Source: Plantactinospora endophytica
GTDB lineage: Bacteria > Actinomycetota > Actinomycetes > Mycobacteriales > Micromonosporaceae
Reading direction: 5' to 3'
Length of the DNA stretch: 64,000 bases
NCBI RefSeq assembly: GCF_016862915.1
Contig: NZ_BONW01000013.1
Coordinates: 248,001-312,000 of the forward strand
Shown: piece by piece, positions 19,450-64,000 of the stretch
Layout: the number at the start of each line of letters is the position of its first letter
Position numbering within the stretch: position 1 is the first letter of the stretch
The notes under the pieces: model-generated
What the model was told of the DNA's origin: nothing
Databases searched by the model: none
The model's input: only the letters and a program-made list of their open reading frames with translations
Translations under genes and position numbers: made by a program

Positions 19450-19493
19450 GGAATGAACTTCCCTGTTATGATCGTCTCGTGGAACAAACTTCC
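19450..19493 (+). promoter_or_regulatory. twin RpiR-type operator boxes flanking a leaderless promoter
   Basis: Two near-identical 13-bp boxes, GGAATGAACTTCC (19450-19462) and GGAACAAACTTCC (19481-19493), are 31 bp apart, about three helical turns. Between them lies TATGAT (19467-19472), a good -10, followed 6 nt later by the GTG start. Both boxes are GGAA-N5-TTCC inverted repeats, the type of site bound by MurR/RpiR regulators. Confidence 0.65.
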
Positions 19494-20330
19494 CCGGGGC
19501 GGCTTGCGGCGCGGATCAGGGCCCGGTTGCCGCAACTGCGCGAGGCCGAGGCGCGGGTCGCCCAAGTGCTGCTCGACCAGGGCGTCGAACTCGTGCACCT
19601 GAGCGTCAACGACGTCGCGGCACTTGCTGGCACTGCCCAGTCGACCGTGGTGCGCGCGTGCCAGCGGCTCGGCTTCCATGGCTATCAAGAGGTCAAGATC
19701 GATGCAGCCCGGGATCGTCCGAGCGGGCTTGAGCCGGTATCCGACCCCGGCGACGGTGTGGTCGGTGACGCCCTTACCCAGACCATCCGCGCCGCCATGG
19801 AGGCGTTGGCGGGATTGCCCGCGACCCTGGCCGTGGATGAGCTGCGCACTGCGGCGGAGCGCATCGACGCCGCATCCCGGATCCTCATCGCCGGCACCGG
19901 CCTGTCGGGGGCCACGGCGGTTGACGCGGCGTACCGGCTGCGGGCGCTCGGCCTGCCGGTCGACCTGCCGCCCGACCCGCTCACCGCCCAGCTCGCCGCC
20001 GATCTACTGCCCGAGCATGCCGTGTGCCTGGCCATCAGCCACAGCGGAGCGACCCGTTCCACCGTGGACACGGCCCGACGGGCCCGCGACCGGGGCGCGA
20101 CCGTCGTCGCCGTCACCAGCTATGCCCGGTCACCGCTGACCGAGGTAAGCGCCTGCGCCCTCGTTGCCGGAGGACAGGACCTCGTCTTCGGCCTCGAGGC
20201 CGTGGCGAGCCGGCTCGCCCACTTCACCGCCATCGACGCGCTCACCCTCGCCCTACGCGCGCTGCGCGGCCCGACGGCCGACCATGCGCTGTCCGTCTCC
20301 GCGGAAGTCACCGCCGCCCACAGCTACTGA
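19479..20330 (+). CDS. MurR/RpiR-family regulator with SIS domain
   Basis: A 283-residue cytoplasmic regulator. The N-terminal RpiR helix-turn-helix (1-80) includes LPQLREAEARVAQVLLDQG and VNDVAALAGTAQSTVVRACQ. The C-terminal SIS domain (about 115-265) has RILIAGTGLSGATAVDAAYR and CLAISHSGATRSTVDTARRA, which should bind a phosphorylated sugar as inducer. GTG 19479 was chosen because the -10 lies 6 nt upstream, giving a leaderless mRNA; the second operator box overlaps this start codon, so the protein probably represses itself. The adjoining fucosidase and aldo/keto reductase suggest a role in sugar or sugar-derivative use. Confidence 0.9.
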   Translation: MEQTSPGRLAARIRARLPQLREAEARVAQVLLDQGVELVHLSVNDVAALAGTAQSTVVRACQRLGFHGYQEVKIDAARDRPSGLEPVSDPGDGVVGDALTQTIRAAMEALAGLPATLAVDELRTAAERIDAASRILIAGTGLSGATAVDAAYRLRALGLPVDLPPDPLTAQLAADLLPEHAVCLAISHSGATRSTVDTARRARDRGATVVAVTSYARSPLTEVSACALVAGGQDLVFGLEAVASRLAHFTAIDALTLALRALRGPTADHALSVSAEVTAAHSY

Positions 20331-48223: not shown

Positions 48224-49270
48224 GTGACCGGAACTGCGCAGGGCACAGGCATCGACGAGATCCACATCCTGTGGACCTCGGAGGGCATGAGCTGTGACGG
48301 TGACTCGGTCTCCGTCACGGCGGCGACGTTGCCGAGCGTGGAGGACGTGGTCCTCGGCCTGGTACCCGGCCTGCCCAAGGTGCATCTGCACAACAAGTTG
48401 CTGGCGGTGGAGACCGGCGCCGGGTTCATGGCGGCCTTCCACCAGGCCGCCCGGGGCGAGCTGGGGCCGTTCATCCTGGTGATGGAGGGGTCGATCCCCA
48501 ACGAGAAGATCAACGGGGACGGCTACTGGACCGCGATGGGCAACGATCCGGTGACCGGCGAGCCGATCACCGTGAACGAGTGGCTCGACCGGCTGGCCCC
48601 GAAGGCGTGGGCGGTGCTGGCCATCGGCACCTGCGCGACGTACGGCGGCATCCACGCGATGGCCGGCAACCCCACCGGCTGCATGGGTCTGGCCGACTAC
48701 CTCGGACCGGACTTCCGGTCGGCGGGCGGGCTGCCGATCGTCAACGTACCGGGCTGCCCGGTACAGCCGGACAACTTCATGGAGACCCTGACCTGGCTGC
48801 TGTACCAGGCCGCCGGGCTGGCCCCGACGATCCCGCTCGACCAGCAGCTCCGGCCGACCTGGCTGTTCGGCAAGACGGTGCACGAGAGCTGCGACCGGGC
48901 CGGCTACTACGAGCAGGGCGACTTCGCCCGGGACTACAACTCGCCCAAGTGCCAGGTACGGATCGGCTGCTGGGGGCCGGTGGTCAACTGCAACGTACCG
49001 AAACGCGGCTGGATGGACGGGATCGGCGGCTGTCCCAACGTCGGCGGGATCTGCATCGGCTGCACCATGCCGGGATTCCCGGACAAGTTCATGCCGTTCA
49101 TGGACGAACCACCGGGCGCGACCCTCTCCTCGGTCGCGTCCGCCACCTACGGGTCGCTGATCCGTCGGCTGCGCGGCATCACCAACCACGCGGTCAACAA
49201 GGAACCGAAATGGCACCACAACCGCCCCGAGCTGACCAGCGGGTACCAGCCGCGCTGGCCGAGGACGTAG
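48224..49270 (+). CDS. hhyS: group 1h [NiFe]-hydrogenase small subunit
   Basis: A 348-residue electron-transfer subunit carrying the iron-sulfur chain that takes electrons from the NiFe site. The proximal-cluster motif reads TSEGMSCDGDSVSVT, with C24-x-x-D27: aspartate replaces the usual second cysteine, as known for actinobacterial-type hydrogenases with a 3Cys-1Asp cluster. AIGTCATYGGIHAMAGNPTG and VNVPGCPVQPDNFMETL supply further ligands. The C-terminal half has ESCDRAGYYEQGD, IGCWGPVVNC and CPNVGGICIGCTMPGFPDKF for the medial and distal clusters. There is no twin-arginine signal, consistent with a cytoplasmic or cytoplasm-facing enzyme. First gene of the operon; GTG start. Confidence 0.96.
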   Translation: MTGTAQGTGIDEIHILWTSEGMSCDGDSVSVTAATLPSVEDVVLGLVPGLPKVHLHNKLLAVETGAGFMAAFHQAARGELGPFILVMEGSIPNEKINGDGYWTAMGNDPVTGEPITVNEWLDRLAPKAWAVLAIGTCATYGGIHAMAGNPTGCMGLADYLGPDFRSAGGLPIVNVPGCPVQPDNFMETLTWLLYQAAGLAPTIPLDQQLRPTWLFGKTVHESCDRAGYYEQGDFARDYNSPKCQVRIGCWGPVVNCNVPKRGWMDGIGGCPNVGGICIGCTMPGFPDKFMPFMDEPPGATLSSVASATYGSLIRRLRGITNHAVNKEPKWHHNRPELTSGYQPRWPRT

Positions 49271-49301: not shown

Positions 49302-51095
49302 ATGGCTCTGCAACAGGAGACCGAGCAGGAGTCCCGCGAACTCGTCGAGATGTCCTGGGACCCGATCACCCGGATCGTCGGCAACCTCGGCATCTACACC
49401 AAGATCGACTTTCGGAACCGCGAGGTGGTCGAGTGCAAGAGCACCTCGTCGATCTTCCGGGGCTACGGCGTGTTCATGCGCGGCAAGGACCCCCGGGACG
49501 CGCACTTCATCACCAGCCGGATCTGCGGCATCTGCGGGGACAACCACGCCACCTGCTCGATCTACGCGCAGAACATGGCGTACGGGATCAAGACCCCGCC
49601 GCTCGGTGAATGGATCATCAACCTGGGCGAGGCCGCCGAGTTCATGTTCGACCACGTCCTCTACCAGGACAACCTGGTGTTCGTGGACTACTGCGAGCAG
49701 ATCGTCAAGGAGACCAACCCGAGCCTGCTGCGCCGGGCCGAGACCACCGAGGCGCCGCGCGGGAACGTCCACGGGCTGCGGACTATCGCGGACATCATGC
49801 GGGCGTTCAACCCGTTCACCGGCTCCATGTACCGCGAGGCGCTCCAGATGAGCCGGCTGACCCGGGAGATGTTCTGCCTGATGGAGGGGCGGCACGTCCA
49901 CCCGTCGACGCTCTATCCCGGCGGGGTCGGCACGGTCGCCACACCGCAGCTCTTCACCGACTACCTGGTACGGCTGCTGAAGGTCCTCGACTTCGTCAAG
50001 AAGGCCGTCCCGATGAACGACGACCTCTTCGACTTCTTCTACGAGGCGCTGCCCGGCTACGAGGAGGTCGGCCGGCGCCGGATCATGCTCGGCTGCTGGG
50101 GCGCCTTCCAGAACCCGGCGGTGGTGAACTACGACTACCGGCACATGGACGAGTGGGGCAAGGCGATGTTCGTCTCGCCCGGCATCGTGCTGGACGGCGC
50201 GCTGCGCACCACCAACCTGGTCGACATCAACCTCGGCATCCGGATCCTGCTCGGCAGTTCGTACTACGACGACTGGCAGGGCGAGGAGACGTTCGTCGAA
50301 CGCGATCCGCTCGGCAACCCGGTCGACAAGCGCCACCCGTGGAACCAGACCACGCTGCCCAAGCCGCAGAAGCGGGACCTGGAGAACGGCAACTACAGCT
50401 GGGTGATGAGCCCGCGCTGGTTCGACGACCGCTCCCAGCAGCACCTGGCGCTGGACACCGGGGGCGGCCCGCTCGCCCGGCTCTGGTCCACCGCGCTGGC
50501 CGGCACTGTCGACACCGGTACGGTCCGGGCCACCGGGGACAGCGTCGAGATCAACCTGCCGAAGAGCGCGGCGTTCCCCGAGATGCAACTCGAATGGAAG
50601 ATCCCGAAGTGGGCCAACACCATCGAACGCAACCGGGCCCGGATCTACTTCGTCGCCTACTCGGCCGCGATGGCCGTGTACTTCGTCGAACAGGCGCTGG
50701 CCGAGGTCCGGGCCGGCCGGACGAAGGTGTTCACCGACTTCGAGGTACCGGAGGAGGGCATCGGCTGCGGCTTCCACGAGGCGGTACGCGGCCTGCTCTC
50801 GCACCACATGGTGATCCGGGACGGCAAGATCGCCAACTACCACCCGTACCCGCCGACGCCGTGGAACGCCAGCCCTCGCGACAGCTACGGCACCCCGGGT
50901 CCGTACGAGGACGCCGTGCAGGGTACCCAGATCTTCGAGGAGAACGGGCCGGAGAACTTCAAGGGCATCGACATCATGCGTACGGTGCGCAGCTTCGATC
51001 CCTGCCTGCCGTGCGGCGTGCACATGTACCTCGGCGACGGCCAGGTCCTCAAACGGCTGCACTCGCCCACCCTCGGCACCAGCGTCCCCGGCTGA
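49302..51095 (+). CDS. hhyL: group 1h [NiFe]-hydrogenase large (catalytic) subunit
   Basis: A 597-residue catalytic subunit. The L1 motif RICGICGDNHATC (C75, C78) and L2 motif DPCLPCGVH (C568, C571) provide the four cysteines of the Ni-Fe(CN)2CO site. SWDPITRIVGNLGIYTKIDF near the start is conserved in large subunits. After H574 of L2 there are 23 more residues (MYLGDGQVLK... to the end), the C-terminal peptide that the maturation protease should remove once nickel is in place. Group 1h enzymes oxidise atmospheric H2 and feed the aerobic respiratory chain during starvation in actinobacteria. It lies 31 bp after hhyS. Confidence 0.97.
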   Translation: MALQQETEQESRELVEMSWDPITRIVGNLGIYTKIDFRNREVVECKSTSSIFRGYGVFMRGKDPRDAHFITSRICGICGDNHATCSIYAQNMAYGIKTPPLGEWIINLGEAAEFMFDHVLYQDNLVFVDYCEQIVKETNPSLLRRAETTEAPRGNVHGLRTIADIMRAFNPFTGSMYREALQMSRLTREMFCLMEGRHVHPSTLYPGGVGTVATPQLFTDYLVRLLKVLDFVKKAVPMNDDLFDFFYEALPGYEEVGRRRIMLGCWGAFQNPAVVNYDYRHMDEWGKAMFVSPGIVLDGALRTTNLVDINLGIRILLGSSYYDDWQGEETFVERDPLGNPVDKRHPWNQTTLPKPQKRDLENGNYSWVMSPRWFDDRSQQHLALDTGGGPLARLWSTALAGTVDTGTVRATGDSVEINLPKSAAFPEMQLEWKIPKWANTIERNRARIYFVAYSAAMAVYFVEQALAEVRAGRTKVFTDFEVPEEGIGCGFHEAVRGLLSHHMVIRDGKIANYHPYPPTPWNASPRDSYGTPGPYEDAVQGTQIFEENGPENFKGIDIMRTVRSFDPCLPCGVHMYLGDGQVLKRLHSPTLGTSVPG

Positions 51096-51103
51096 GTACG
51101 ACG

Positions 51104-51661
51104 ATGACACTGACCGACCGGGCCGCGACAGAGCTGGTCGACCGGGCCGAGGGACTGCTGGAACGGGTCGCGTCCGGAGCCGACCCGGCGCTGCGGGCGG
51201 ACGCGGTCGAACTGGTCCGGGCGCTGCTGGAACTCTACGGCGAGGGACTGGCCCGGATCATCGCGACGGCGGTCCGGGCCGGCGGCGACGACCTCGTCAC
51301 GGAACTCGCCGCCGACGGCCTGGTCGCACATCTTCTGCTGCTGCACGGGCTGCACCCGGTGGAGACCGCCACCCGGGTCGCCGACGCGGTCCGGACCTGG
51401 TCCCGCGCCAGCGGGGTACCGGCCGAACTGCTCGACGTGGCCGGCGACACCGTCCGGTTGCGGCTGCCGGCCGCCGGCACCGGCTGCGGGTCCTCCACCG
51501 CCGCCGGCCTGGCGGAGGCGGTCCGGGCGGCGGCTCCGGAGATCGCCCACGTCGACGTCGAGCAGTCCCGGCCGGCACCGGCGCTGATCCCGGTCGGCAG
51601 CCTTCGGCGGCATCGGCACGGCGACGACCAGCCGGCGGCACCGGTCGGGACGGACCGATGA
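51104..51661 (+). CDS. NifU-like hydrogenase-associated protein
   Basis: A 185-residue protein. The helical N-terminal part ends in VAHLLLLHGLHPVETATRVA, a segment typical of the NifU-like proteins found next to group 1h hydrogenases. A NifU C-terminal-like domain follows (DVAGDTVRLRLPAAGTGCGS, APEIAHVDVEQ). In NifU this loop is CxxC and holds an iron-sulfur cluster; here it reads GTGCGSS and the protein has only this one cysteine. It therefore cannot bind a cluster as a NifU monomer normally does, but could bridge one in a dimer. Starts 8 bp after hhyL; overlaps the next gene by 4 bp. Confidence 0.85.
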   Translation: MTLTDRAATELVDRAEGLLERVASGADPALRADAVELVRALLELYGEGLARIIATAVRAGGDDLVTELAADGLVAHLLLLHGLHPVETATRVADAVRTWSRASGVPAELLDVAGDTVRLRLPAAGTGCGSSTAAGLAEAVRAAAPEIAHVDVEQSRPAPALIPVGSLRRHRHGDDQPAAPVGTDR

Positions 51662-52557
51662 CGTCCCGTCCGCCATCCCGCGACACCGTCCGGTATCCGG
51701 TCCGGCCCGCCGGGCTGCGCCGGCTCGTGACCCGGTCGAACACCAGCCAGCCGAACCGAGCAGACCAGGTGGAGCCGGCGGGGCCGGCGGGCCAGGCGGG
51801 GCCGGTGGAGCAGGTGGGAGCGGTGGCACGGGCGGGCGACGGCGCGCAGCGGTGCGACCTGTGCGCGGCGGAGGTCCCGGCGGAACACCGGCACCTGGTC
51901 GACACCGCCGACCGGGTGCTGCGCTGTGCCTGCCGGGCCTGCGCCCTGCTGTTCGACCGGCCGCCCGGCGATCCGGCCCGCTATCGGCTGGTCCCCGACC
52001 GGCGGTGGCGGCTGACCGGGTTCGCGCTCGACGACGCGGCCTGGGCAGGTCTGCGGATCCCGGTCGACACGGCGTTCTTCTTCGTGGATTCCGGGGCGGG
52101 CCGGACGGTGGCCTTCTACCCGAGCCCGGCCGGTGCGGTGGAGTCCCTGCTCGACCTCGCGGACTGGGCCCGGCTGGTGACGGCGAACCCGGTGCTCGAC
52201 CGGCTCGTCCCGGACGTCGAGGCGCTGCTGGTGCACCGGACGCCGGACGTCCGGGAGCACTGGCTGGTACCCATCGACGACTGCTACGACCTGGTCGGGC
52301 TGATCCGCAGCCGGTGGACCGGACTCGCCGGTGGACCGGACGTGTGGCGCGAGATCGCGGCCTTCTTCACCCGGCTGCGCGACCGGGCCCGACCACTGCC
52401 CGCCACCCCCGCCACCCCCGCCGGCACCGCCGGGAAGCTGACCGATCCGACCAGCGCGACCGGTGGCACCGCCGGGAAGCTGACCGATCCGAACAGCGCG
52501 ACCGGTGGCACCGTCGGGACGCTGACCGATCCGACGAGTTCGAGGAGGCACGGATGA
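51658..52557 (+). CDS. DUF5947 hydrogenase-associated protein
   Basis: A 299-residue protein of the DUF5947 type found in actinobacterial hydrogenase loci. After a proline/alanine-rich lead (1-60) there is a zinc-ribbon-like pair: RCDLCAAEVPAEHRHL and RCACRACALLFDRPPG. A mixed domain follows (YRLVPDRRWRLTGFALDDAA, IPVDTAFFFVDSGAGRTVAF) and then VPDVEALLVHRTPD and EHWLVPIDDCYDLVGLIRSR. The C-terminal 45 residues are three tandem copies of a TGGTAGKLTDPTSA-like unit, encoded by a 42-bp DNA repeat. The metal site suggests an electron-carrier or assembly role (inference). Confidence 0.85.
   Translation: MTSRPPSRDTVRYPVRPAGLRRLVTRSNTSQPNRADQVEPAGPAGQAGPVEQVGAVARAGDGAQRCDLCAAEVPAEHRHLVDTADRVLRCACRACALLFDRPPGDPARYRLVPDRRWRLTGFALDDAAWAGLRIPVDTAFFFVDSGAGRTVAFYPSPAGAVESLLDLADWARLVTANPVLDRLVPDVEALLVHRTPDVREHWLVPIDDCYDLVGLIRSRWTGLAGGPDVWREIAAFFTRLRDRARPLPATPATPAGTAGKLTDPTSATGGTAGKLTDPNSATGGTVGTLTDPTSSRRHG
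52423..52548 (+). repeat. three tandem 42-bp repeats at the 3' end of the DUF5947 gene
   Basis: Units at 52423-52464, 52465-52506 (one base different) and 52507-52548 (diverged). They are in frame and end just before the overlapping start of the 70-aa gene at 52554. Confidence 0.85.
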
Positions 52558-52766: not shown

Positions 52767-52780
52767 CCGTGGAGCATCCG

Positions 52781-53463
52781 ATGACCGCCGTCGGCTCCGT
52801 GGGGCCGGTCCAGGAGGCCGCGCCGACGCTGACCGTCGCCGTCGAACGGGCCGAGGCGGTCGACTTCGCGGCCGTGCCGACGCTGCGGTTCCGGGCCCGC
52901 GTCGGCGCGCCCGCCGGCCTGCCGGTCCGGGCGATCACGCTGGCCACCCAGATCCACCTCGCGGCGGACCGCCGCCGGTACGACGCCGACGAGACGGATC
53001 GGCTGCGCGACCTCTTCGGCCCGCCCGAGGGGTGGGACCGGGCGCTGCGCGGACTGCTCTGGACCCACGCCACCACGCAGGTGCCGCCGTTCACCGGGGA
53101 GACCGTCGTCTACATCCTGGTGCCCTGCACGTACGACTTCGAGGTGGCGGCGGCGAAGTACCTGCACGCGCTGGCCGACGGTCAGGTACCGCTGGAGTTC
53201 CTCTTCTCCGGCACCGTCTTCTACACCGTCGACGGACGGTTGCGGGCGGCGCACATCCCGTGGGACACCCGGGCCACCCACGGGATGCCGGTGCGGGTGT
53301 GGCGGGAGTTGATGGAGCGGCACTTTCCCGGCAGCGCCTGGCTGCGGCTGGACCGGGACACCGTCGACCGGTTGCGGGCCTACCAGGCACGCCATGCCCT
53401 GGCCACCTGGAGCGAGACCGTCGAACGGCTGCTCGGCGACACCGGACCGACCAGGAGCGGCGG

Positions 53464-53467
<4 letters not shown>
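52781..53467 (+). CDS. DUF6084 hydrogenase-associated protein
   Basis: A 228-residue beta-rich protein matching DUF6084: PTLTVAVERAEAVDFAAVPT, LATQIHLAADRRRYDADETD, LRDLFGPPEGWDRALRGLLW, THATTQVPPFTGETVVYILV, CTYDFEVAAAKYLHALADGQ and VPLEFLFSGTVFYTVDG. No catalytic or metal motif is recognised. It is found only beside hydrogenase and related genes as far as I know. The ATG at 52781 has GGAG 7 nt upstream; a GTG at 52769 is possible. Its stop overlaps the next start (ATGA). Confidence 0.85.
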
Positions 53468-54677
<1,210 letters not shown>

Positions 54678-54681
<4 letters not shown>

Positions 54682-55550
54682 GCGGGACGGACTTCTGGAC
54701 CCGGATGGAGAGCCGGGGCCCGGACAGCGTCGTGGTGGCCGGCAGCACTGTCCGGGCGGGCAGCCGGGTACGGCTGCGTCCGCGCGGTTCCGCCGACATC
54801 TTCGACCTGGCGCTCGGCGGCCGGGTCGCGGTGGTGCGCAGCGTGGAGCAGGACGAGGCGGGTGAGCTGCACCTCGCGGTGACCCTGGAGGACGATCCGG
54901 GCAGCGACCTCGGCGACGCCCGGCTGCCCGGTCACCGGTTCTTCTACGGGCTGGCCGACGTGGAGCCACTCGGTCCGGCGAGTACCGACGCCGCTCCGGT
55001 GCGGGTACTCGTCGCCGGGATCGGCAACGTCTTCCTCGGCGACGACGGTTTCGGCGTGGCGGTGGTACGTCGGCTCGCCGAGCGGCCGTGTCCACCCGAG
55101 GTGGACGTGGTGGAGTTCGGCATCCGGGGCATGGACCTGGTCTACGCGCTGCAACGCGACTACGCGGCGGTGGTCTTCGTGGACGCGGCGCCCCGGGGCG
55201 AGCCGGCCGGCACCCTCACGCTGCTCGACGCGGCGCAGGGCTGGGCCGGGCGCTCCACGGTGGAGCCGCACGGGATGGATCCGGTCAGGGTGCTGCGGTT
55301 GGCCGCCGAACTCGGCCGGGTGCCGGAACGCAGGCTGGTGCTCTGCTGCGAGCCGGCGACACTGCCGACCGAGGTGCTCGGCGAGGACGTGCTGGTCGGG
55401 CTGAGCGCGCCGGTCGAAGCAGCGGTGGAGCAGGCGGTCCGGCTGGTCGAGCAGACCCTGTCGGAACTGATCGCCGCTGGGTCCGACCGGGCCCGGCGGT
55501 CCGCACCGGTGGACGACCCGCCGGACGGCGACCCGGGAGACCCGAGATGA
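54678..55550 (+). CDS. hydrogenase maturation endopeptidase with extra N-terminal domain
   Basis: A 290-residue protein. Residues 1-105 form an unrelated beta-rich domain (VVVAGSTVRAGSRVRLRPRG, PGHRFFYGLADVEPLG). Residues 110-265 are the M52 hydrogenase protease: RVLVAGIGNVFLGDDGFGVA (first nickel-sensing acid), VDVVEFGIRGMDLVYAL (second acid) and VEPHGMDPVRVLRLA (histidine). This enzyme removes the C-terminal peptide of the large subunit after nickel insertion, here presumably the 23 residues after H574 of HhyL. GTG start overlapping the previous stop; its stop overlaps the DUF6893 start. Confidence 0.93.
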
Positions 55551-55657
55551 AGACCAAGTTGTACGCGGTGGCGGTTCTGGCAGCCGCCGGCATTTCTGCC
55601 CTTTTAGTGCTTGAATGGTCTGGATTGAAGCGCTATGTGAAGATGGAGCGGATGTAG
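55547..55657 (+). CDS. 36-residue single-helix protein (DUF6893-like)
   Basis: A tiny protein: MKTKLYAVAVLAAAGIS opens a single membrane helix (about residues 6-23), followed by an amphipathic, basic tail LKRYVKMERM. Its ATG overlaps the protease stop (ATGA) and it ends 5 bp before hypA, so it is firmly inside the operon. Small proteins of this shape (DUF6893) recur in actinobacterial hydrogenase operons. A membrane tether for the otherwise soluble complex is a reasonable guess. Confidence 0.8.
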   Translation: MKTKLYAVAVLAAAGISALLVLEWSGLKRYVKMERM

Positions 55658-55662
55658 CGAAT

Positions 55663-56232
55663 ATGCACGAGATCGGGATGTGTGCAGGGCTGGTCGACCT
55701 GATCGGGGAACGGGCGGCCGGCCGACCGGTGCGCGACGTGCGGATCCGGGTCGGCGTCCGGCACGCCGTACTCGACGACGCCTTCGACCAGGCGTTCGCC
55801 ATGGTCGCCGCCGGCAGCGCGGCCGAGGGCGCCACCGTCGACCTGGTGGTCACCCCGACCAGCGTTACCTGCCGCTCGTGCGGGCACCGCGCCGACTCGC
55901 TGGACACCCTCGCCGTCTGCCCGAACTGCGGCGGAGCCGACGTGGAACTGTCCGGTGGCGACGAACTGGTGCTGGAGTCGATCCGGTTCGGCCCGGCCGA
56001 CCAGCCGGCGGACTCGCCGATGAATTCGGTGCCGGTGGACCCGGTGCCGGTGGGCTCGTTGCCGGTGGATCCGGTGCCGGCGGACCGCTCGCCGGTGGAC
56101 CCGTTGCCGATGAATTCGGTGCCGGTGGATCCGGTGCCGGCGGGCCCCTCGCCGGTGGACCCGGTGCCGGCACCGGGCCGGTTCCGCGCCGCACGGGAGG
56201 AGCCGGCGGATGTGTCTGGGTATCCCGGGTGA
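55663..56232 (+). CDS. hypA: hydrogenase nickel insertion protein HypA, extended
   Basis: Nickel chaperone of the maturation pathway. The N-terminal MHEIGMCAGLVDLI holds the nickel-binding His2. The zinc site CRSCGHRADSLDTLAVCPNC has the two CxxC pairs. Normal HypA ends near residue 115; this one continues to 189 with a repetitive tail of PVDPVP/PVDPLP units (residues about 118-171) and a final RFRAAREEPADVSGYPG that runs over the hypC start. Overlap with hypC is 23 bp. The tail has no known role. Confidence 0.93.
   Translation: MHEIGMCAGLVDLIGERAAGRPVRDVRIRVGVRHAVLDDAFDQAFAMVAAGSAAEGATVDLVVTPTSVTCRSCGHRADSLDTLAVCPNCGGADVELSGGDELVLESIRFGPADQPADSPMNSVPVDPVPVGSLPVDPVPADRSPVDPLPMNSVPVDPVPAGPSPVDPVPAPGRFRAAREEPADVSGYPG
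56014..56175 (+). repeat. in-frame imperfect repeats encoding the HypA tail
   Basis: Imperfect copies of a 24-42-bp unit containing GCCGGTGGAYCCGGTGCCG; the segment with ATGAATTCGGTGCCGGTGGA appears twice. Five PVDPVP-like motifs result. The tract ends about 35 bp before the hypC start. Confidence 0.8.
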
Positions 56233-56482
56233 GCTGGTCCGGTTCGTCGCCGACCAACCCGACCTGGCCCTGGTCGAGGTGAGTGGCGTCGGTCGCCGGA
56301 TCAACGTCGCGCTGCTCGCCGACGAGCAGTTGCAGCCCGGCGACTGGGTACTGGTGCACGTCGGTTTCGCCCTGTCGAAGATCTCCGAGACCGAGGCCCA
56401 GGCCGTACTGGCCTACCTGGAGGAGATGGGCCAGCCGTACGCCGACGAACTCGACGCGCTGCGCACCTCCAACATCGGCTGA
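56210..56482 (+). CDS. hypC: hydrogenase maturation chaperone HypC
   Basis: A 90-residue OB-fold chaperone that carries the Fe(CN)2CO group with HypD and hands it to the large subunit. It starts MCLGIPGELV with the essential Cys2. The C-terminal VLVHVGFALSKISETEAQAV matches the family. Length is normal. It overlaps the hypA 3' end by 23 bp, with no gap to the upstream operon. Confidence 0.96.
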   Translation: MCLGIPGELVRFVADQPDLALVEVSGVGRRINVALLADEQLQPGDWVLVHVGFALSKISETEAQAVLAYLEEMGQPYADELDALRTSNIG

Positions 56483-56498
56483 GAACGGAAGGCATCCC

Positions 56499-57626
56499 AT
56501 GCGGTTCGTCGACGAGTACCGCGACGCGGGCCGGGCCCGCGCGCTGGCCGGGCAGATCGCCGCCCGGTGCCGGCCGGGCCGGGAGTACAAGTTCATGGAG
56601 GTCTGCGGCGGCCACACCCACACCATCTACAAGCACGGCCTGGAGGACTACCTCCCGGAGAACGTGACACTGGTGCACGGGCCCGGTTGCCCGGTCTGCG
56701 TCATCCCGATGGGCCGGGTCGACGACGCGATCCACATCGCGGAGCAGCCGGACGTGATCATGACCTCGTTCGGCGACATGATGCGGGTACCGGGTGGGCA
56801 GAGCTCCTTCCTGGACGCGAAGGCGGCCGGCGCCGACATCCGGATGGTCTACTCACCGCTCGACGCGCTGAAGATCGCCCGACAGAATCCGCACCGCCGG
56901 GTCGTGTTCATGGCGATCGGCTTCGAGACCACCGCGCCGTCCACCGCGATGACCGTACTCCGCGCCGCCGAGCAGGGCGTCGACAACTTCTCCGTGTTCT
57001 GCAACCACGTCACGATCATCCCGGCGATCAAGGCGATCCTCGACTCGCCGGACCTGCGGCTCGACGGCTTCCTCGGCCCGGGGCACGTGTCGACGGTGAT
57101 CGGCTGCCGGCCGTACGACTTCATCGCCCGGGAGCACGGCAAGCCGCTGGTCGTCGCGGGCTTCGAGCCGCTGGACATCCTCCAGTCGGTGCACATGCTG
57201 CTCGGTCAGCTCGCCGACGGCCGCTGCGAGGTGGAGAACCAGTACGCCCGGGTGGTGCCGGAGGACGGCAACCCGATCGCGCTGGCCGCCATCGCCCGGG
57301 TGATGCGGCTGCGCCCGTACTTCGAGTGGCGGGGACTGGGGTTCATCCCGTACTCCGCGCTCGGGATGGCCGACGAGTACGCGGCCTTCGACGCGGAACG
57401 CCTCTTCGAGGTACCCGGAATCCGGGTCGCGGACCCGAAGGCGTGCCAGTGCGGCGAGGTCCTCAAGGGCGTGCTGAAGCCGTGGGAGTGCAAGGTCTTC
57501 GGCACCGCCTGCACCCCGGAGACCCCGATCGGGACCTGCATGGTCTCCGCCGAGGGCGCCTGCGCGGCGTACTACAACTTCGGCCGGTTCAGCCGGGAAC
57601 GGGTCCGGGAGGCGACGCGGGTGTGA
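56499..57626 (+). CDS. hypD: hydrogenase maturation factor HypD
   Basis: A 375-residue iron-sulfur scaffold where the Fe(CN)2CO unit is built. Conserved cysteines are all present: FMEVCGGHTHTIYKHGLEDY, LVHGPGCPVCVIPMGRVDDA, KACQCGEVLKGVLKPWECKV and FGTACTPETPIGTCMVSAEG. The GFETTAPSTAMTVLRA and PGHVSTVIG motifs are also typical. CGGAAGG precedes the ATG by about 6 nt. It overlaps the hypE start (GTGA). Confidence 0.96.
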   Translation: MRFVDEYRDAGRARALAGQIAARCRPGREYKFMEVCGGHTHTIYKHGLEDYLPENVTLVHGPGCPVCVIPMGRVDDAIHIAEQPDVIMTSFGDMMRVPGGQSSFLDAKAAGADIRMVYSPLDALKIARQNPHRRVVFMAIGFETTAPSTAMTVLRAAEQGVDNFSVFCNHVTIIPAIKAILDSPDLRLDGFLGPGHVSTVIGCRPYDFIAREHGKPLVVAGFEPLDILQSVHMLLGQLADGRCEVENQYARVVPEDGNPIALAAIARVMRLRPYFEWRGLGFIPYSALGMADEYAAFDAERLFEVPGIRVADPKACQCGEVLKGVLKPWECKVFGTACTPETPIGTCMVSAEGACAAYYNFGRFSRERVREATRV

Positions 57627-58804
57627 ACGAGGAACGGGTCGTACCGCAGCGCCAGGCGGAGTGGGCCGAACGCGCGGTGCGGGACGCGCTGCGGGAGGCA
57701 TCCGACCCGGTGCCGGCCGGACCCGACCGACCCGGCCGGGAACAGCAGGTGCTGCACCGGATCGAGCGCGCCCGCAGCCGCCGGCCCACCGTCCGGGAGG
57801 AGCGGATCACCCTGGCCCACGGCGCCGGTGGCAAGGCGACGCAGACCCTGGTCGAGGCGATCTTCCTGGACGCGTACGGCAGCCCGGGGCAGGGCCCGCT
57901 GGAGGACGGTGCGGCCCTGCCGCTCGGCCCGGCGCGGGCGGTACTCACCACGGATTCGTTCGTCGTCTCGCCGCTGTTCTTCCCCGGCGGCGACATCGGC
58001 GACCTCGCGGTCAACGGCACCGTCAACGACCTGGCCGTCTGCGGCGCGACGCCGCGCTACCTCTCGGCCGGGTTCATCCTGGAGGAGGGCTTCCCCGTCG
58101 CCGACCTGCGCCGGATCGTCAGCTCGATGGCCAGCGCGGCACGGGCGGCCGGCGTGTCGATCGTCACCGGCGACACGAAGGTGGTGCAGCGCGGGAAGGC
58201 CGACGGCTGCTACATCAACACCGCCGGGGTCGGACTGCTCGAACGGCCGGTCGCGCTCTCGGTCGGCAACGCGCGCCCCGGTGACGCGATACTGCTCTCC
58301 GGGCCGATCGGCGAGCACGGCACGGCGATCATGATCGCCCGGGGCGACCTGGACATCGAGGCCGACCTGCGCTCCGACACCGCCGCCCTGTCCGAGGTCG
58401 TCGCCCGGCTCCTCGACGCGGTTCCCGGCCGGGTCCGGGCACTGCGCGACGCGACCCGGGGCGGCGTGGCCACCGTACTCAACGAGGTGGCCGGTGCGTC
58501 CCGGGCGGCGATCGTGGTCGACGAGTCGGCGATCCCGATCCGTCCCGAGGTCACCGGCGCCAGTGAACTGCTCGGCATCGACCCGCTCTACGTCGCCTGC
58601 GAGGGCCGGTTCGTCGCCGTCGTCGACGGCGGGTACGCCGAACCGGCACTGCGGGCGCTACGCGGTCATCGGCTCGGCGCGGAGGCGGCGATCATCGGCC
58701 AGGTCCGGGCCGACCCGCCGGGCCTGGTGCTGCTACGCACGGGAATCGGCGGTACCCGGATCGTGGACCTGCTCGTCGGCGACCCGCTGCCCCGGATCTG
58801 CTGA
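57623..58804 (+). CDS. hypE: hydrogenase maturation factor HypE
   Basis: A 393-residue ATP-dependent dehydratase that turns the carbamoyl group received from HypF into a thiocyanate, the source of CN ligands. The core begins at ITLAHGAGGKATQTLVEAIF (about residue 62), with GDIGDLAVNGTVNDLAVCGA and IVTGDTKVVQRGKADGCY. The ending DPLPRIC carries the essential C-terminal cysteine (C393). The 60-residue charged N-terminal extension is unusual; the GTG overlap with hypD supports it, but a GTG near 57749 is possible. Its 3' end overlaps hypF on the other strand by 72 bp. Confidence 0.95.
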   Translation: MNEERVVPQRQAEWAERAVRDALREASDPVPAGPDRPGREQQVLHRIERARSRRPTVREERITLAHGAGGKATQTLVEAIFLDAYGSPGQGPLEDGAALPLGPARAVLTTDSFVVSPLFFPGGDIGDLAVNGTVNDLAVCGATPRYLSAGFILEEGFPVADLRRIVSSMASAARAAGVSIVTGDTKVVQRGKADGCYINTAGVGLLERPVALSVGNARPGDAILLSGPIGEHGTAIMIARGDLDIEADLRSDTAALSEVVARLLDAVPGRVRALRDATRGGVATVLNEVAGASRAAIVVDESAIPIRPEVTGASELLGIDPLYVACEGRFVAVVDGGYAEPALRALRGHRLGAEAAIIGQVRADPPGLVLLRTGIGGTRIVDLLVGDPLPRIC

Positions 58805-61150
58805 CCCGGGCTCACCCGCCCCGGACCGCGCGGCGGCCACCCGGTCCAGGGCGGCGGCCACCGCGACTTGGCCGAGACTGATCCCGCCGTCGTTGCACGG
58901 CACCCGGTGGTGCGTCAACACCCGCAGACCGTGCCGGGTCAGCCCGTCGGTCACCGCACCGAGCAGCAGCGGGTTGCCGAAGACCCCGCCGGACAGGGCC
59001 ACCGTGCCCAGGCCGGCGGTCTCGGCGATCCGCCGCACGGCGGTGACCGTCGCCGCCGCGAGCCCGTGATGGAAGCGCGCCGCGATCACCGCGGGCTGCA
59101 CGCCGCGCCGCAGATCCGCCAGCACCCCCCGGACCAGGTCGACGCCGTGCACGCCGACGACGGGCGCGCTGACACCGTGTACGCCGCCGCCGGGCGGGTC
59201 GACGGTGGGCGGGCCGGTGACGGTCACCGGGTAGCCGTCCCGGACGCCCGGGTCGGCCAACTGCTCCAACTCCACCGCCGCCTGTCCCTCGTAGTCGACC
59301 ACGTCCCGCACCCCGAGCAGGGCGGCGACGGCGTCGAAGAGCCGTCCGGCGCTGGAGGTCGGTGGCGAGTTCACCCCGCGCGCCGCGAGCCGCAGCACGT
59401 CGGGCCACCGGTCGGCGTTCCGGCGTACCACGTCGAGTCCGTCCGGCACCTGCCCGTCGTAGGCGGCGGAGAGGTAGGCCGCCGCCATCCGCCACGGCTG
59501 CCGGATCGCCGCCGTACCGCCCGGCATCGGTACCGGCAGCAGGTGGCCGGCGCGCACGAATCCGGTCAGGTCCGCCACCAGCAACTCCCCGCCCCACACG
59601 GTGCCGTCGGTGCCGTACCCGGTGCCGTCGAAGGCGACCCCGACGACCGGCCCCGGTTCGCCGTTCTCGGCCAGACAGGCGGCGACGTGCGCGTGGTGGT
59701 GCTGCACCGCGACCAGCTCGACGTCGGGCAGCGCGCGGGCGTACCGGGTGGACGGGTAGTCCGGGTGCAGGTCGTGCGCGACCACCGCCGGGGTCACCCC
59801 GAACAGTCGGCACAGCCGCGCCACCCCGTCGGCGAAGGCGACCGTACCCGGATAGCTGTCCAGGTCGCCGACGTGCGGGGAGAGGATCGCCCGTCGCCCG
59901 TCCGCCAGGCAGAACGTGTTCTTCGTCTGCCCGCCGCAGCCGAGCACCGGACGCGGCGACGGCCACGGCAGCACGATCGGCTCCGGGGCGTACCCCCGGG
60001 CGCGCCGGACGGAGGTCGGCCGGCCCCGGACGACCCGGACCACGGAGTCGTCGCACGGCGCGTGGATCGGTCGGTCGTGCCGCAGTACCGCGTCGGCGAG
60101 CCCGGGAAGTCGCCGCCCGGCGTCGTCGTCCCGGTGCACGATCGGCTCGTCCGACACGTTCGCACTGGTCAGGACCAGGGGGCGGTCGAGTGCTCCGGCC
60201 AGCAGATGGTGCAGCGGTGTGTACGGCAGCAGCACGCCGAGCAGCCGGTCCCCCGGGGCCACCGACGGCGCGACCGGGGCGCCGGCCCGGCGCGGCAGCA
60301 GTACGACGGGACGGCGGGCACCATCGAGCAGCCGCGCGGACACCTCGTCGAGTACGCCGAGCCGGGCCGCCTCGGTCAGGTCCCGGGCCAGCACCGCGAA
60401 CGCCTTGCCGGGCCGGCGTTTCCGGGCGCGCAGCGTCGCGACGGCCTCCTCGTCGGTGGCGTCCACCGCGAGGTGGTATCCGCCCAACCCCTTGACCGCG
60501 ACCACCGCGCCCTGGTCCAGCCACGCGGCGGCGGTCCGCACCGGGTCGCCGGGTACCGGTGTGCCGTCCGCGCCGACCAGCTCCAGCGTCGGACCGCAGG
60601 CGGGACAGCAGACCGGCTGGGCGTGGAACCGGCGGTCACCCGGATCGTGGTACTCCCTGGCGCAGTCCGGACACATCGCGAAGCCCGCCATCGTGGTACC
60701 GGGACGGTCGTACGGCAGGTCGGTGACGATGGTGTACCGGGGCCCGCAGTTGGTGCAGTTGACGAACGGGTACCGGTGCCGCCGGTCCGCCGGGTCGAAG
60801 AGTTCGGCGAGGCAGTCGGCGCAGGTCGCCGCGTCCGGGGCCACGGTGGTGGATCGGCTGCCGGTGGGCCGGCTCGGGGCGATCTCGAAGGTCCGGCTCC
60901 CGGTGACCGGGATGCGGGTCACGTCGACCCGGTCCACCTCCGCCAGCGCGGGTGCCCGGTCCCGTACCGCGTCGACCAGCGCGGTCACCGCCGGCGCCGC
61001 CCCCTCGACCTCGATGAAGACGCCGCCGGGATCGTTGCCGACCAGCCCGGAGAGGCCGAACTCGGTGGCCAGCGCGTACACGAAGGGCCGGAACCCGACG
61101 CCCTGGACGGTCCCCTCCACCCGGACCCGGCACCGCACCGCGCCGCCCAC
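58733..61150 (-). CDS. hypF: carbamoyltransferase HypF
   Basis: An 805-residue enzyme that activates carbamoyl phosphate and transfers the carbamoyl group to HypE. Domains in order: acylphosphatase (1-95; VRVEGTVQGVGFRPFVYALA), zinc fingers (CADCLAELF, VNCTNCGPRYTIVTDLPYDR, CPDCAREYHD, VCCPACGPTLEL), YrdC-like (WLDQGAVVAVKGLGGYHLAV, KRRPGKAFAVLARDL, PLVLTSANVSDEPIVHRDDD), and Kae1-like (VQHHHAHVAACLAENGEPGP, VGVAFDGTGYGTDGTVWGGE, VALSGGVFGNPLLL). All key parts are present. GTG 61150, 5 bp after the SIS gene stop, or GTG 61138 is the start. Last gene of the SIS/HypC-like/SIS/hypF operon. Confidence 0.95.
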   Translation of the reverse strand: MGGAVRCRVRVEGTVQGVGFRPFVYALATEFGLSGLVGNDPGGVFIEVEGAAPAVTALVDAVRDRAPALAEVDRVDVTRIPVTGSRTFEIAPSRPTGSRSTTVAPDAATCADCLAELFDPADRRHRYPFVNCTNCGPRYTIVTDLPYDRPGTTMAGFAMCPDCAREYHDPGDRRFHAQPVCCPACGPTLELVGADGTPVPGDPVRTAAAWLDQGAVVAVKGLGGYHLAVDATDEEAVATLRARKRRPGKAFAVLARDLTEAARLGVLDEVSARLLDGARRPVVLLPRRAGAPVAPSVAPGDRLLGVLLPYTPLHHLLAGALDRPLVLTSANVSDEPIVHRDDDAGRRLPGLADAVLRHDRPIHAPCDDSVVRVVRGRPTSVRRARGYAPEPIVLPWPSPRPVLGCGGQTKNTFCLADGRRAILSPHVGDLDSYPGTVAFADGVARLCRLFGVTPAVVAHDLHPDYPSTRYARALPDVELVAVQHHHAHVAACLAENGEPGPVVGVAFDGTGYGTDGTVWGGELLVADLTGFVRAGHLLPVPMPGGTAAIRQPWRMAAAYLSAAYDGQVPDGLDVVRRNADRWPDVLRLAARGVNSPPTSSAGRLFDAVAALLGVRDVVDYEGQAAVELEQLADPGVRDGYPVTVTGPPTVDPPGGGVHGVSAPVVGVHGVDLVRGVLADLRRGVQPAVIAARFHHGLAAATVTAVRRIAETAGLGTVALSGGVFGNPLLLGAVTDGLTRHGLRVLTHHRVPCNDGGISLGQVAVAAALDRVAAARSGAGEPGSADPGQRVADEQVHDPGTADSRA

Positions 61151-61155
61151 CGGGG

Positions 61156-61812
61156 TCAGCCCGGTCCCGCCAGCGCCTGTTGGACCAGCTCCCACAGCAC
61201 GTGGTAGACGGTGGTCTGCGCCTCCTGGATCCGGTGCACCGACGACGACGGCACGACGAAGAGGTGGTCGACGGTGCCCGCCTCGGCCATCCGGCCGCCG
61301 CCCGAGCCGGCCAGTCCCACGGTCAGCATGCCGAGCCGGCGCGCTTCGGTGAAACCGTCCAGCACGTTGGTCGAGCCGCCGCTGGTCGACAACCCCACCG
61401 CGATGTCCCCGCGTCGGCCGAAGACGGCGAGTTGGCGGGCGAAGACCACGTCGAATCCGACGTCGTTGCCGAGCGCCGAAAGCAGCGCGACGTCGGCCGT
61501 CAGCGACGTCGCGGGCAGGGCCCGGCCGCCGGGGTCGGGGGCGAGGAAAAGCTGCGCGACCGAGGCGGCGTCGGTGCCGCTGCCGCCGTTGCCGAAGGCG
61601 TACAGCCGGGCGCCGGACCGGAACGCCGCCGCCAGGGCGTACCCGCAGGCGTCGAGTTCCGGGCCGTACCGCTGGCGTACCTGTTCGCGCAGGGTCACGA
61701 TCTGCCGGACCTTTTCCACTGTGGACCGGGTGACGGCGGTGAGCAGGGCGTCGGGGTCGTCGGCACCTGGCCGGAGGAAGGGATACAGGGCCAGGGCGTC
61801 GGGCGCGGTCAC
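61156..61812 (-). CDS. SIS-domain protein, phosphoheptose isomerase (GmhA)-like
   Basis: A 218-residue sugar isomerase-fold protein. RLYAFGNGGSGTDAASVAQL is the phosphate-binding motif of sedoheptulose-7-phosphate isomerase, followed by ATSLTADVALLSALGNDVGF and IAVGLSTSGGSTNVLDGFTE. The terminal IQEAQTTVYHVLWELVQQAL is shared with the other SIS protein of this operon. Its GTG overlaps the HypC-like stop (GTGA), and hypF begins 5 bp after its stop, so it is made together with maturation proteins. There are no heptose or LPS genes around, which argues for a hydrogenase-linked role rather than cell-wall sugar synthesis (inference). Confidence 0.92.
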   Translation of the reverse strand: MTAPDALALYPFLRPGADDPDALLTAVTRSTVEKVRQIVTLREQVRQRYGPELDACGYALAAAFRSGARLYAFGNGGSGTDAASVAQLFLAPDPGGRALPATSLTADVALLSALGNDVGFDVVFARQLAVFGRRGDIAVGLSTSGGSTNVLDGFTEARRLGMLTVGLAGSGGGRMAEAGTVDHLFVVPSSSVHRIQEAQTTVYHVLWELVQQALAGPG

Positions 61813-62066
61813 CGGTCCGTCCTTCCGGGCGGGGCAGGGGCGATTCCGATCGCCTCCTTGGCGTGCACCAGGACGGTGTCGCCGACCCGGGCCGAGACCA
61901 GCGCGACACTTACCTCCTCGTGGCCGGCCGCCGTCTGCACCAGCGCGAGCCGGTCGGGCCGCAGTTCCAGCACCGTGCCGGGTTCGGCGTGGTCGCCGCA
62001 GGTCAGGCAGACCTCGTCGGCGCACGCCGGCCGGGGCGCCGGATCGGTCGCGGAATCCCCGGTCAT
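61809..62066 (-). CDS. HypC/HupF-like second chaperone
   Basis: An 85-residue OB-fold protein. The C-terminal part VGDTVLVHAKEAIGIAP and the central PGTVLELRPDRLALVQTAAG follow the HypC/HupF pattern, but the N-terminus differs from a true HypC. Instead of starting MC, it has a 14-residue lead and then CADEVCLTCGDHAEPG with three cysteines. In actinobacterial hydrogenase loci such proteins are annotated as HypC/HybG/HupF family. It overlaps the SIS genes on both sides by 4 bp. It may serve as a second scaffold or bring a different partner to HypD or the large subunit. Confidence 0.85.
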   Translation of the reverse strand: MTGDSATDPAPRPACADEVCLTCGDHAEPGTVLELRPDRLALVQTAAGHEEVSVALVSARVGDTVLVHAKEAIGIAPAPPGRTDR

Positions 62067-62662
62067 CGCACCGCCTCCCGGGCACTACTGTGCGGCGCCG
62101 GCTGGTCCAGGAAGACCTGCACCAGTTCCCAGAGGATGTGGTAGACGGTCACGTGGATCTCCTTGGCGATCCGTGGGTCGTCGGTCCGGGCCGCGAACCA
62201 GTGCCGCACGCCGGGCAGCACCGGCTCGGTCGTACCGGTCAGCGCGACGGTCAGCAGTCCGCCGCTCACCGCCTCGGCCAGGCCCCGCCGGACGCTCCGG
62301 CAGAGCGGGCTCGGACCGATGCCGACCGCGATGTCGCCCGGGCGCCCCAGCATCCGCAACTGCGCCGCGAACGCCTGGCCGTGGCCGTGGGCCCGGGTCA
62401 CGGCGGTCAGCGCGGCGCCGTCGTTGACCAGCGAGATCGCCGGTAACGCCCGGGCACCGACGACGGCCGGATGGACGAACTCGACCGCCAGGTGTGCCGC
62501 GTCGGCGGCCCCCGCACCGGTACCGAAGGCCAGTAGTCGGCCGCCGGCCCGGAACCGGGCGGCCATCTCGTGGGCGGCACCGGCGATCAGTGGTGCTTCC
62601 TCGGCGACCGCCTCGGCCGGCGGTAGGCGACGGGCGAACGCCAGGTCGGACGGAGCTGTCAC
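62063..62662 (-). CDS. SIS-domain protein, GmhA-like, divergent
   Basis: A 199-residue SIS protein, first gene of the operon. RLLAFGTGAGAADAAHLAVE corresponds to the phosphate loop but reads GTGAGAAD in place of GNGGSGTD, and the second motif IAVGIGPSPLCRSVRRGLAE lacks the STSGxS serines seen in active isomerases. The end IHVTVYHILWELVQVFLDQ matches the neighbouring SIS protein. It therefore looks like a paralogue with a decayed active site, perhaps the non-catalytic half of a heteromer with the other SIS protein. Confidence 0.9.
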   Translation of the reverse strand: MTAPSDLAFARRLPPAEAVAEEAPLIAGAAHEMAARFRAGGRLLAFGTGAGAADAAHLAVEFVHPAVVGARALPAISLVNDGAALTAVTRAHGHGQAFAAQLRMLGRPGDIAVGIGPSPLCRSVRRGLAEAVSGGLLTVALTGTTEPVLPGVRHWFAARTDDPRIAKEIHVTVYHILWELVQVFLDQPAPHSSAREAVR

Positions 62663-62819: not shown

Positions 62820-63710
62820 TCACCGCTGCCCGGCGTCCCTGGGCCGCAGCAGCTCGAACACGCTGGAGAAGCTCTCCTCCCCGTGGCCGTCGGCCGACCG
62901 TCTGTCGAGCAGGGCCCGCAACGGTTCGTGTACGTCGCCGCCCACCCCGTTGGCCCGGCTGATCCGGACGAGGTTGTCCACCGCGACCCGGTTCAGGTCG
63001 ACCGTGGAAACGCCGCCGTCGTAGGCCCTCGCCCCGGCCTCCCGGGCCAGCTCGGGCAGGAACTGTGCCATTCCGGTCAGCCACCTGGAAGCCAGTGGGG
63101 CGAAGTCCGCCGGAGCGGTACCCAGTGCGTCGAGCAGCGCCGCGGCGTGCAGGAATCCGGTGAGGGCCGCGTACCCGGTGCCCAGCAGGGCGAGGTCGTG
63201 GATCTCCGCCAGACCGGGATCCGCGCCGAAGTAGTGGCTGGACGCCATGACGTCCAGTTCGGCGCGGTAGGTGGTGAAGGCCCGCTCGGAACCGCTGTAG
63301 AGGAAGAATCCTTCCGGGGTGGCGACTGTCTGCGGCAGCGCCATCATCGCGCCGTCGAGATAGTCGGCACCGTGGTCGGTCGCCCAGGAGGCCAGCTCCC
63401 GGGCCTGCTCCGGGGCGCCGTTGGCGAGGTTGACCAGGACCCGGCCGGACAGGGCGGAGGCGGCCGGTCCGAGTACCCGCCGTACGGCGTCGTAGTCGAG
63501 CAGTGGGACCACCACCAGCGGACTGGCCGCGACCGCCTCGGCGGGGGTGGCCGCGTGGACGGCGCCCTGCGCGACGAGGCCGTCCGCCTTTCCCGTGGTG
63601 CGGTTCCACACGGTCGTCGGGTACCCGGCGCGGAGGAACGCGGCGGCGATCGGCGTGCCCATCCGGCCCAACCCGAGGACCGTCACGTTCGGCCTGCCCT
63701 GCTCAGACAT
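62820..63710 (-). CDS. NAD(P)-binding reductase, 6PGDH/imine reductase-like
   Basis: A 296-residue beta-hydroxyacid-dehydrogenase-fold protein. VTVLGLGRMGTPIAAAFLRA is the dinucleotide-binding turn and TTVWNRTTGKADGLVAQGA the NADP-type specificity strand. LVNLANGAPEQARELASWA and GADYLDGAMMALPQTVATPE match the imine-reductase branch rather than true 6-phosphogluconate dehydrogenase, since the usual catalytic lysine region is changed. Imine reductases reduce cyclic C=N bonds. The start overlaps the stop of the next reductase gene by 8 bp, so the two are one operon. Confidence 0.9.
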   Translation of the reverse strand: MSEQGRPNVTVLGLGRMGTPIAAAFLRAGYPTTVWNRTTGKADGLVAQGAVHAATPAEAVAASPLVVVPLLDYDAVRRVLGPAASALSGRVLVNLANGAPEQARELASWATDHGADYLDGAMMALPQTVATPEGFFLYSGSERAFTTYRAELDVMASSHYFGADPGLAEIHDLALLGTGYAALTGFLHAAALLDALGTAPADFAPLASRWLTGMAQFLPELAREAGARAYDGGVSTVDLNRVAVDNLVRISRANGVGGDVHEPLRALLDRRSADGHGEESFSSVFELLRPRDAGQR

Positions 63711-64000
63711 TGCTGGCGCCCTTCCGGATCGTCTCGACCACGCTCGCGATGCCGTCGCCGCCGAACCCCGCGCCCGCCGCCCGGTCGAGCAACGCCTTGA
63801 CCAGCTCCGGCACGTCCGTGCCGACGCCCTGGGCGGCGCTGGTGTCGAGAAGGTGCTGCATCGCCGCCGCGTGCACCCGTACGGTTCCGTCGTCGTCCGG
63901 GTAGCGGCCGTCCTCGATCTGGCGGGCGTGGTCGGCCATCAGCGAGGTGACGAACGGCATGTGGCCGGTCGCCACCGTGGCGAAGGCGGTCGGGTCGACG
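63703..64000 (-). CDS. second NAD(P)-binding reductase, C-terminal part only
   Basis: The last 98 codons of a related reductase, cut by the window end. The visible stretch FATVATGHMPFVTSLMADHA and ARQIEDGRYPDDDGTVRVHA, then LVKALLDRAAGAGFGGDGI, matches the C-terminal helical domain of 6PGDH/imine reductase proteins (compare PLRALLDRRSADGHGEES in the neighbour). It would be upstream of the intact reductase in one operon, suggesting a tandem duplication. Confidence 0.8.
   Translation of the reverse strand, partial: VDPTAFATVATGHMPFVTSLMADHARQIEDGRYPDDDGTVRVHAAAMQHLLDTSAAQGVGTDVPELVKALLDRAAGAGFGGDGIASVVETIRKGASNV

Follow-up and report, generated by a model that had tools for sequence, protein, structure and literature searches.

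A hydrogenase-linked pair of GmhA-like proteins with a probable composite active site and a HypC-like partner

The closest described relative of the proteins reported here is GmhA, the phosphoheptose (D-sedoheptulose 7-phosphate) isomerase. According to the available text of PMC5705639, GmhA is a tetramer with active sites that extend across chains and lie at a three-chain interface, its Zn ligands are H64, E68, Q175, and H183, and this homomer shows half-site behavior. The accessible part of PMC11056994 describes the Zn ligands as contributed by two chains, and in a model of the Mycobacterium tuberculosis enzyme the glutamate and the glutamine come from different monomers (PMC7705670, available portion). 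The presence of a gmhA-like gene at group 1h hydrogenase loci is already published: a “putative phosphoheptose isomerase (gmhA)” is marked at group 1h/5 loci in the legend of Fig. 5 of PMC5900883, MSMEG_2706 is tabled as gmhA between hyp genes in PMC5445863, and a cluster of SIS-domain neighbors comprising 68 genes is tabled in PMC12727194. These are the same kind of gene and the same context as those of the SIS genes considered here, but the available portions of these sources give no function, no pair of proteins, no split site, and no relation to HypX. Similarly, no account of a split site or of an alternation between SIS and HypX was found in the literature searched, which included few subscription papers. 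We consider, with a probability of roughly 60%, that these genes encode a hydrogenase-dedicated, heteromeric offshoot of GmhA in which two chains have undergone complementary losses, share a composite site, and have a HypC-like protein (HypC2) as their partner. This would define a three-protein module of group 1h bacteria that occupies hyp clusters from which HypX is absent, and a GmhA relative that has apparently lost half of its sites permanently would be a clean case of complementary degeneration.

The window, i.e., the whole stretch of 64,000 nucleotides that was analyzed, contains an operon of SIS-B, HypC2, SIS-A, and hypF, which adjoins a group 1h hydrogenase cluster on the opposite strand (Table 1). 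SIS-B and HypC2 overlap by 4 bp, as do HypC2 and SIS-A, and a gap of 5 bp separates SIS-A from hypF. This order and spacing had been described in the initial annotation and agree with the coordinates; the motifs quoted there for the two SIS proteins (GNGGSGTD and STSGGS in one, GTGAGAAD and GPSPLCRS in the other) were likewise found in the sequence. Both proteins matched the Pfam SIS_2 model (52.3 bits for SIS-A and 46.3 bits for SIS-B; cut-off, 27), and the hypF product has the full set of HypF domains in Pfam. The reported absence of hypX also held for the 9.7 Mb genome of the window, in which no HypX match was detected (E ≤ 1e-10; 27 of 27 candidates scored). Other features of the window include an imine-reductase-like gene with a RedAm-like C-terminal domain directly upstream of SIS-B (62820–63975, minus strand), which overlaps a second frame at 63703–63975; another SIS gene, encoding an RpiR-type regulator according to Pfam (19380–20330, plus strand); and, fairly near the hydrogenase cluster, a frame with UvrA-type DNA-binding and ABC domains (44128–46692, plus strand).

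Table 1. Genes of the SIS operon and the adjoining hydrogenase cluster (positions within the window).
Feature	Position	Strand	Remarks
SIS-B	62063..62662	minus	GTG start, 199 aa; GmhA-like SIS_2 protein
HypC2 (HypC-like)	61809..62066	minus	85 aa; motif CADEVCLTCGD, without N-terminal MC
SIS-A	61156..61812	minus	GTG start, 218 aa; GmhA-like SIS_2 protein
hypF, carbamoyltransferase	58733..61150	minus	GTG start, 805 aa; TIGR00143, 711.6 bits (cut-off 466.1)
hypE, convergent with hypF	57773..58804 (start approximate)	plus	phmmer with C. necator HypE, 360 bits
hypD	56499..57626 (start approximate)	plus	
Canonical hypC	56210..56482	plus	MCLGIPG motif
hypA	55615..56232	plus	
Frame with HycI-type maturation protease domain	54396..55550	plus	
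DUF6084	52769..53467	plus	Accompanies hhyL in many group 1h loci examined
DUF5947	51658..52557	plus	Accompanies hhyL in many group 1h loci examined
NifU-like (C. necator cluster protein)	51140..51562	plus	Weak match, 45 bits
hhyL, NiFe hydrogenase large subunit	49302..51095	plus	
hhyS, NiFe hydrogenase small subunit	48224..49270	plus	

The residues known from GmhA, numbered here as in the Burkholderia pseudomallei enzyme, are divided between the two proteins. The window's SIS-A keeps GNGGS, STSG, D98, Q175, and H183 and lacks H64 and E68; SIS-B keeps H64, E68, and H183, has an extra H71, and has GTGAG and GPSP in place of the phosphate loops. The same division was found in homologs, for which domains gapped at a scored column were excluded (scored: 34 of 37 separate and 25 of 26 fused SIS-A, 32 of 37 separate and 25 of 26 fused SIS-B), as were L044 and L103, which had no class assigned. 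All 59 scorable SIS-A domains have GNGGS and STS and none has H64 together with E68, E68 alone being kept in three, all from Ktedonobacteria (L113, L118, and L128). Conversely, H64 and E68 occur together in 57/57 scorable SIS-B domains, and both GNGGS and STS in 0/57. Single-copy SIS relatives have GNGGS, STS, and H64 with E68 in all eight cases, and among 23 other GmhA-like domains these are present in 23, 20, and 20, respectively. D98 was found in 63/63 SIS-A and in no SIS-B, and H183 is common to both. Q175 is kept in 62 of 63 SIS-A (the other has a gap), in 25 of 26 fused SIS-B, and in 5 of 37 separate SIS-B, most of which have Lys at this position, and it is thus an imperfect divider of A and B. 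Two further histidines characterize SIS-B and the single-copy proteins: H71 (57/57 SIS-B, 8/8 singles, 8/59 SIS-A, and 0/23 other GmhA-like domains) and H190 (55/57, 8/8, 2/59, and 0/23, respectively). In the fusions, class was set by position (N-terminal half B, C-terminal half A), so that it is independent of similarity labels.

The full residue set is therefore absent from either chain alone and complete in A and B jointly. Because the losses are complementary and the GmhA active site spans chains, SIS-A and SIS-B most likely form one composite active site, as judged from sequence conservation. The pair had been interpreted in the initial annotation as a catalytic chain with a non-catalytic one, and this part did not stand: the loop-less SIS-B retains H64 and E68, both of which the loop-bearing SIS-A has lost. 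An alignment that combined fused SIS chains with single ones was dropped because the two halves were not cleanly resolved in it: invariant columns were confined to the C-terminal half, as though SIS-B sequences had been misplaced.

The forms of the SIS genes differ among lineages. The Pseudomonadota examined have a single SIS gene, upstream of hypD and downstream of hypC or hypF; Actinobacteria and others have two SIS domains, either as separate genes or as fusions. SIS-B is fused to SIS-A in 25 distinct ORFs, with B first in every one, and to HypC2 in seven distinct ORFs. The 25 B–A fusions back the earlier suggestion of a heteromer, and we infer that A and B associate physically and act on a sugar phosphate. 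In a tree of 87 SIS domains, for which up to 28 SIS-A and up to 28 SIS-B rows were drawn at random after removal of rows of ≤ 150 aa, SIS-A formed one group (support 99), SIS-B formed another (100), and the hydrogenase-linked domains were separated from the other GmhA-like domains (99). SIS-A is broken across several frames in L122 and L126 and matches in two pieces inside one frame in L080, L110, and L139, through either sequencing error or decay. In five loci (L045, at 9617–9877; L046; L124; L144; and L199), a glutaredoxin-like protein, annotated as a Uxx-star (seleno)protein in Thermus, is encoded between the SIS-B/SIS-A fusion and hypF, and it is possibly an additional member of the module.

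Predicted structures agree with a GmhA fold. The model of the window's SIS-B (pLDDT 88.4, pTM 0.86) had GmhA (1tk9) as its best structural match, with a TM-score of 0.84 by query length. A natural B–A fusion (L124), modeled with an input of three fusions and seven SIS-A rows (pLDDT 86.1, pTM 0.85), reached a TM-score of 0.93 against 1tk9 by target length. Scores against the gmhA equivalog model TIGR00441 were all below its cut-off of 209.45: 120.2 for SIS-A, 79.0 for SIS-B, and 148.1 for the single SIS protein of C. necator. The SIS_2 domain and the predicted fold place the pair with GmhA, and the loops together with H64, E68, Q175, and H183 in one chain were found in the single-copy relatives and in neither A nor B. 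In summary of this comparison, the pair resembles GmhA (TIGR00441; PDB 1tk9, 2x3y, and 2xbl) in fold and residue sets, but differs from it in the division of duties over two chains, the extra H71 and H190, and the hydrogenase context. A role in heptose synthesis seems disfavored by the genomic context.

Under the composite-site reading, a complete single-chain form with the GmhA fold would have been duplicated, presumably in this direction, and complementary losses in the duplicates would have left a single composite site at the A/B interface. SIS-A would hold the phosphate and the sugar through GNGGS, STSG, D98, and Q175, and SIS-B would provide the metal ligand and the base (H64 and E68). 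The pair and HypC2 would then act within the HypC-D-E-F machinery, in hyp clusters without HypX. The alternative that survives best, which we judge unlikely but worth serious attention, is that the SIS proteins are a non-catalytic scaffold or a sugar-phosphate sensor that holds HypC2 or HypC-D-E-F and links maturation to carbon status. Regulatory roles are common among SIS domains, and E. coli DiaA (4u6n), a GmhA relative with a different function, was among the structural matches of SIS-B; the SIS-B/HypC2 fusions in seven ORFs would also suit such a role. However, the conservation of H64 and E68 in SIS-B (57/57) and of the loops in SIS-A (59/59), which extends over several phyla, counts against a pure scaffold because a scaffold needs neither.

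HypC2 is, by its sequence, a distinct type of HypC that has CxTC instead of the N-terminal MC. It resembles HypC/HybG/HupF in scoring above the cut-off of Pfam HupF_HypC (31.1 bits; cut-off, 28.5), but it falls below that of TIGR00074 (17.8 bits; cut-off, 48). CxTC, followed by any residue and then D, E, or G, was found in 38/38 HypC2 rows, compared with CxTC in 0/101 canonical HypC rows, a count that is biased upward because the HypC2 rows were selected for similarity to the HypC2 of the window (over 24 bits). The N-terminal motif [MV]CL[AG][IV]PG occurred in 0/38 HypC2 rows; 98 of the 101 canonical rows match [MV]CLxx[PR][GA], and the other three start with MC or VC. The N-terminal MC of HypC carries the essential cysteine. 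HypC2 was detected in none of eight single-SIS loci, and the HypC-like gene therefore goes with the SIS pair.

These features also bear on a reading in which the pair is a metal device: SIS-B, through H64, E68, H71, H183, and H190, would hand iron or zinc to HypC2 or HypCD, and sugar-phosphate binding would be a leftover or a switch. H71 and H190, typical of SIS-B and the single-copy proteins and missing from all other GmhA-like domains scored, point in this direction, as do the CxTC motif in every HypC2 row and the open question of the iron source of the cofactor, which the available text of PMC10847431 calls unresolved, its title announcing evidence for Isc in E. coli. Against this, the phosphate- and sugar-binding side is fully retained in SIS-A, including D98 and Q175, and we regard a metal device as rather unlikely.

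The SIS pair is linked specifically to hydrogenase loci. In the class to which the window belongs, SIS-A was present in 27 of 394 genomes, the window's own included (E ≤ 1e-60), and a hydrogenase or hyp gene lay within 1.5 kb on either side in 27/27 cases; in two of these, a weak HycI match was the sole such gene. SIS-B adjoins 26 of the 27 SIS-A genes, and the contig of the 27th is cut. The initial annotation had named wide occurrence of the pair without hydrogenase genes as the observation that would tell against its idea, and no such case was found in the 394 genomes. The absences in this survey are weaker than those of the smaller genome searches because, in the large searches, no more than a subset of the candidates received a score (7 and 3 per genome). 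In a phylum-wide survey, 22 of 149 genomes had SIS-A (E ≤ 1e-38), and HypD was present in 21 of these 22 vs. 58 of the 127 others (Fisher p about 1e-5); in the exception (G042), SIS-A adjoins hhyS. A plasmid search matched 155 records, many of which are ordinary GmhA; context is known for the eight examined, which were among the strongest matches, and all eight lay within hyp clusters (C. necator pHG1, Afipia pHCG3, Mesorhizobium, Sphingopyxis, Methylocystis, a Mycobacterium, Thermus, and Sulfobacillus). Confinement of the pair to group 1h was rejected, as loci with NifU and NHL neighbors, which we take to be Huc or group 2a-like, carry it too. An ordinary sugar-phosphate isomerase that merely travels with hydrogenase genes, e.g., for carbon storage, would account for the GmhA fold and motifs, but it is already disfavored, and very improbable in our estimation, given the hydrogenase or hyp neighbors of every SIS-A gene in the class, the fusions to a HypC relative, and the position of the pseudomonadotal gene by hypC or hypF and hypD.

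HypX (HoxX), the CO-producing maturase, is, like the SIS pair, an extra member of the hyp clusters of aerobic NiFe hydrogenases. The two are otherwise unrelated, HypX matching formyltransferase and enoyl-CoA hydratase models, all below cut-off. Of the two hyp sets of C. necator, the first contains hypX but lacks SIS, and the second contains SIS but lacks hypX; a Bradyrhizobium plasmid shows the same division. To describe loci regardless of SIS, we used the best 80 of at least 577 HhyL relatives, an uneven sample consisting mostly of actinobacteria: within 10 kb, 28 loci had SIS, 16 had HypX, none had both, and 36 had neither. At the genome scale, 15 of these 36 have SIS elsewhere, six have a hyp-clustered HypX at another site, four have HypX without a hyp gene in the stretch examined, and 11 show neither (including L076, which was outside the genome search). 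The best 80 thus comprise 43 SIS genomes and 22 genomes with hyp-linked HypX, and a true SIS-A was found in 0/22 of the latter (best match 149 bits, compared with at least 277 for true SIS-A). Five SIS genomes, all Nonomuraea, also carry a HypX homolog, with no hyp gene around it in the stretches examined, one of which was a contig of only 4.8 kb; one of these genomes is G531, equated by its coinciding contig and coordinates. The class survey gave a similar picture. HypX was found in 31 genomes, 30 of them with a locus, of which 20 were linked to hyp or hydrogenase genes and 10 were unlinked (two of these assessed on stretches of < 7 kb); SIS-A was present in 0/20 of the linked and 5/10 of the unlinked cases. 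In the phylum survey, G086 had SIS and an unlinked HypX.

Among the loci annotated, HypX and SIS share no hyp cluster. The odds of zero overlap by chance were 4e-4 by locus and 3e-10 by genome with kinship ignored, values that overstate the case because the loci are related. In a HypD phylogeny (94 rows), with 13 labels assigned by hand from the genome-level results, the SIS/HypX label needs two changes; HypX appears at two places and the single SIS at two places, and of four independent pairs HypX differs in one or two, without significance in a test that is powerless. Some hyp clusters have neither (L082, L085, L088, L106, L151, and G038). Group 1h genes and hyp clusters without a true SIS-A or HypX match in the genome were seen for L085, L088, L106, and L050 (G038). 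Furthermore, the available text of PMC12976888 gives a Parageobacillus Huc operon with neither gene, and that of PMC4767420 reports that hypX is absent from some high-affinity H2 oxidizers.

The step served by the composite site may be one that provides Fe(CN)2CO with a C1 or CO unit, or with iron, in systems that do without HypX, an idea that we advance tentatively and with the odds against it. More specifically, SIS-A, SIS-B, and HypC2 might supply aerobic NiFe hydrogenases with the CO ligand, or with the C1 precursor of CO, independently of HypX. In this scheme, a sugar phosphate bound by SIS-A would be turned over at the SIS-B metal through an enediol, as we conceive it, and the one-carbon unit released would be passed to HypC2 and HypCD. 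Because the HypD tree shows only about two alternations between SIS and HypX and some clusters have neither, we treat CO supply by the SIS proteins as a doubtful possibility.

Two observations concern HypX itself. At the edge of one locus (L135, 21.1–21.7 kb), HypX was detected only as fragments (128 and 27 bits), and the corresponding genome, G176, gave no HypX match (E ≤ 1e-50); the fragments are perhaps a broken hypX. HypX homologs without a hyp gene in the stretch examined occur in L182–L185, L278, L280–L282, L291, L293, L215, and L218, and no HypD match was obtained in G050, the genome of one of the unlinked homologs. Those that were scored against C. necator HypX reached 350–490 bits. 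The homologs come from Nonomuraea, from other actinomycetes, and from Acaryochloris and Mycetohabitans plasmids, and they perhaps represent a HypX-like family with a different use.
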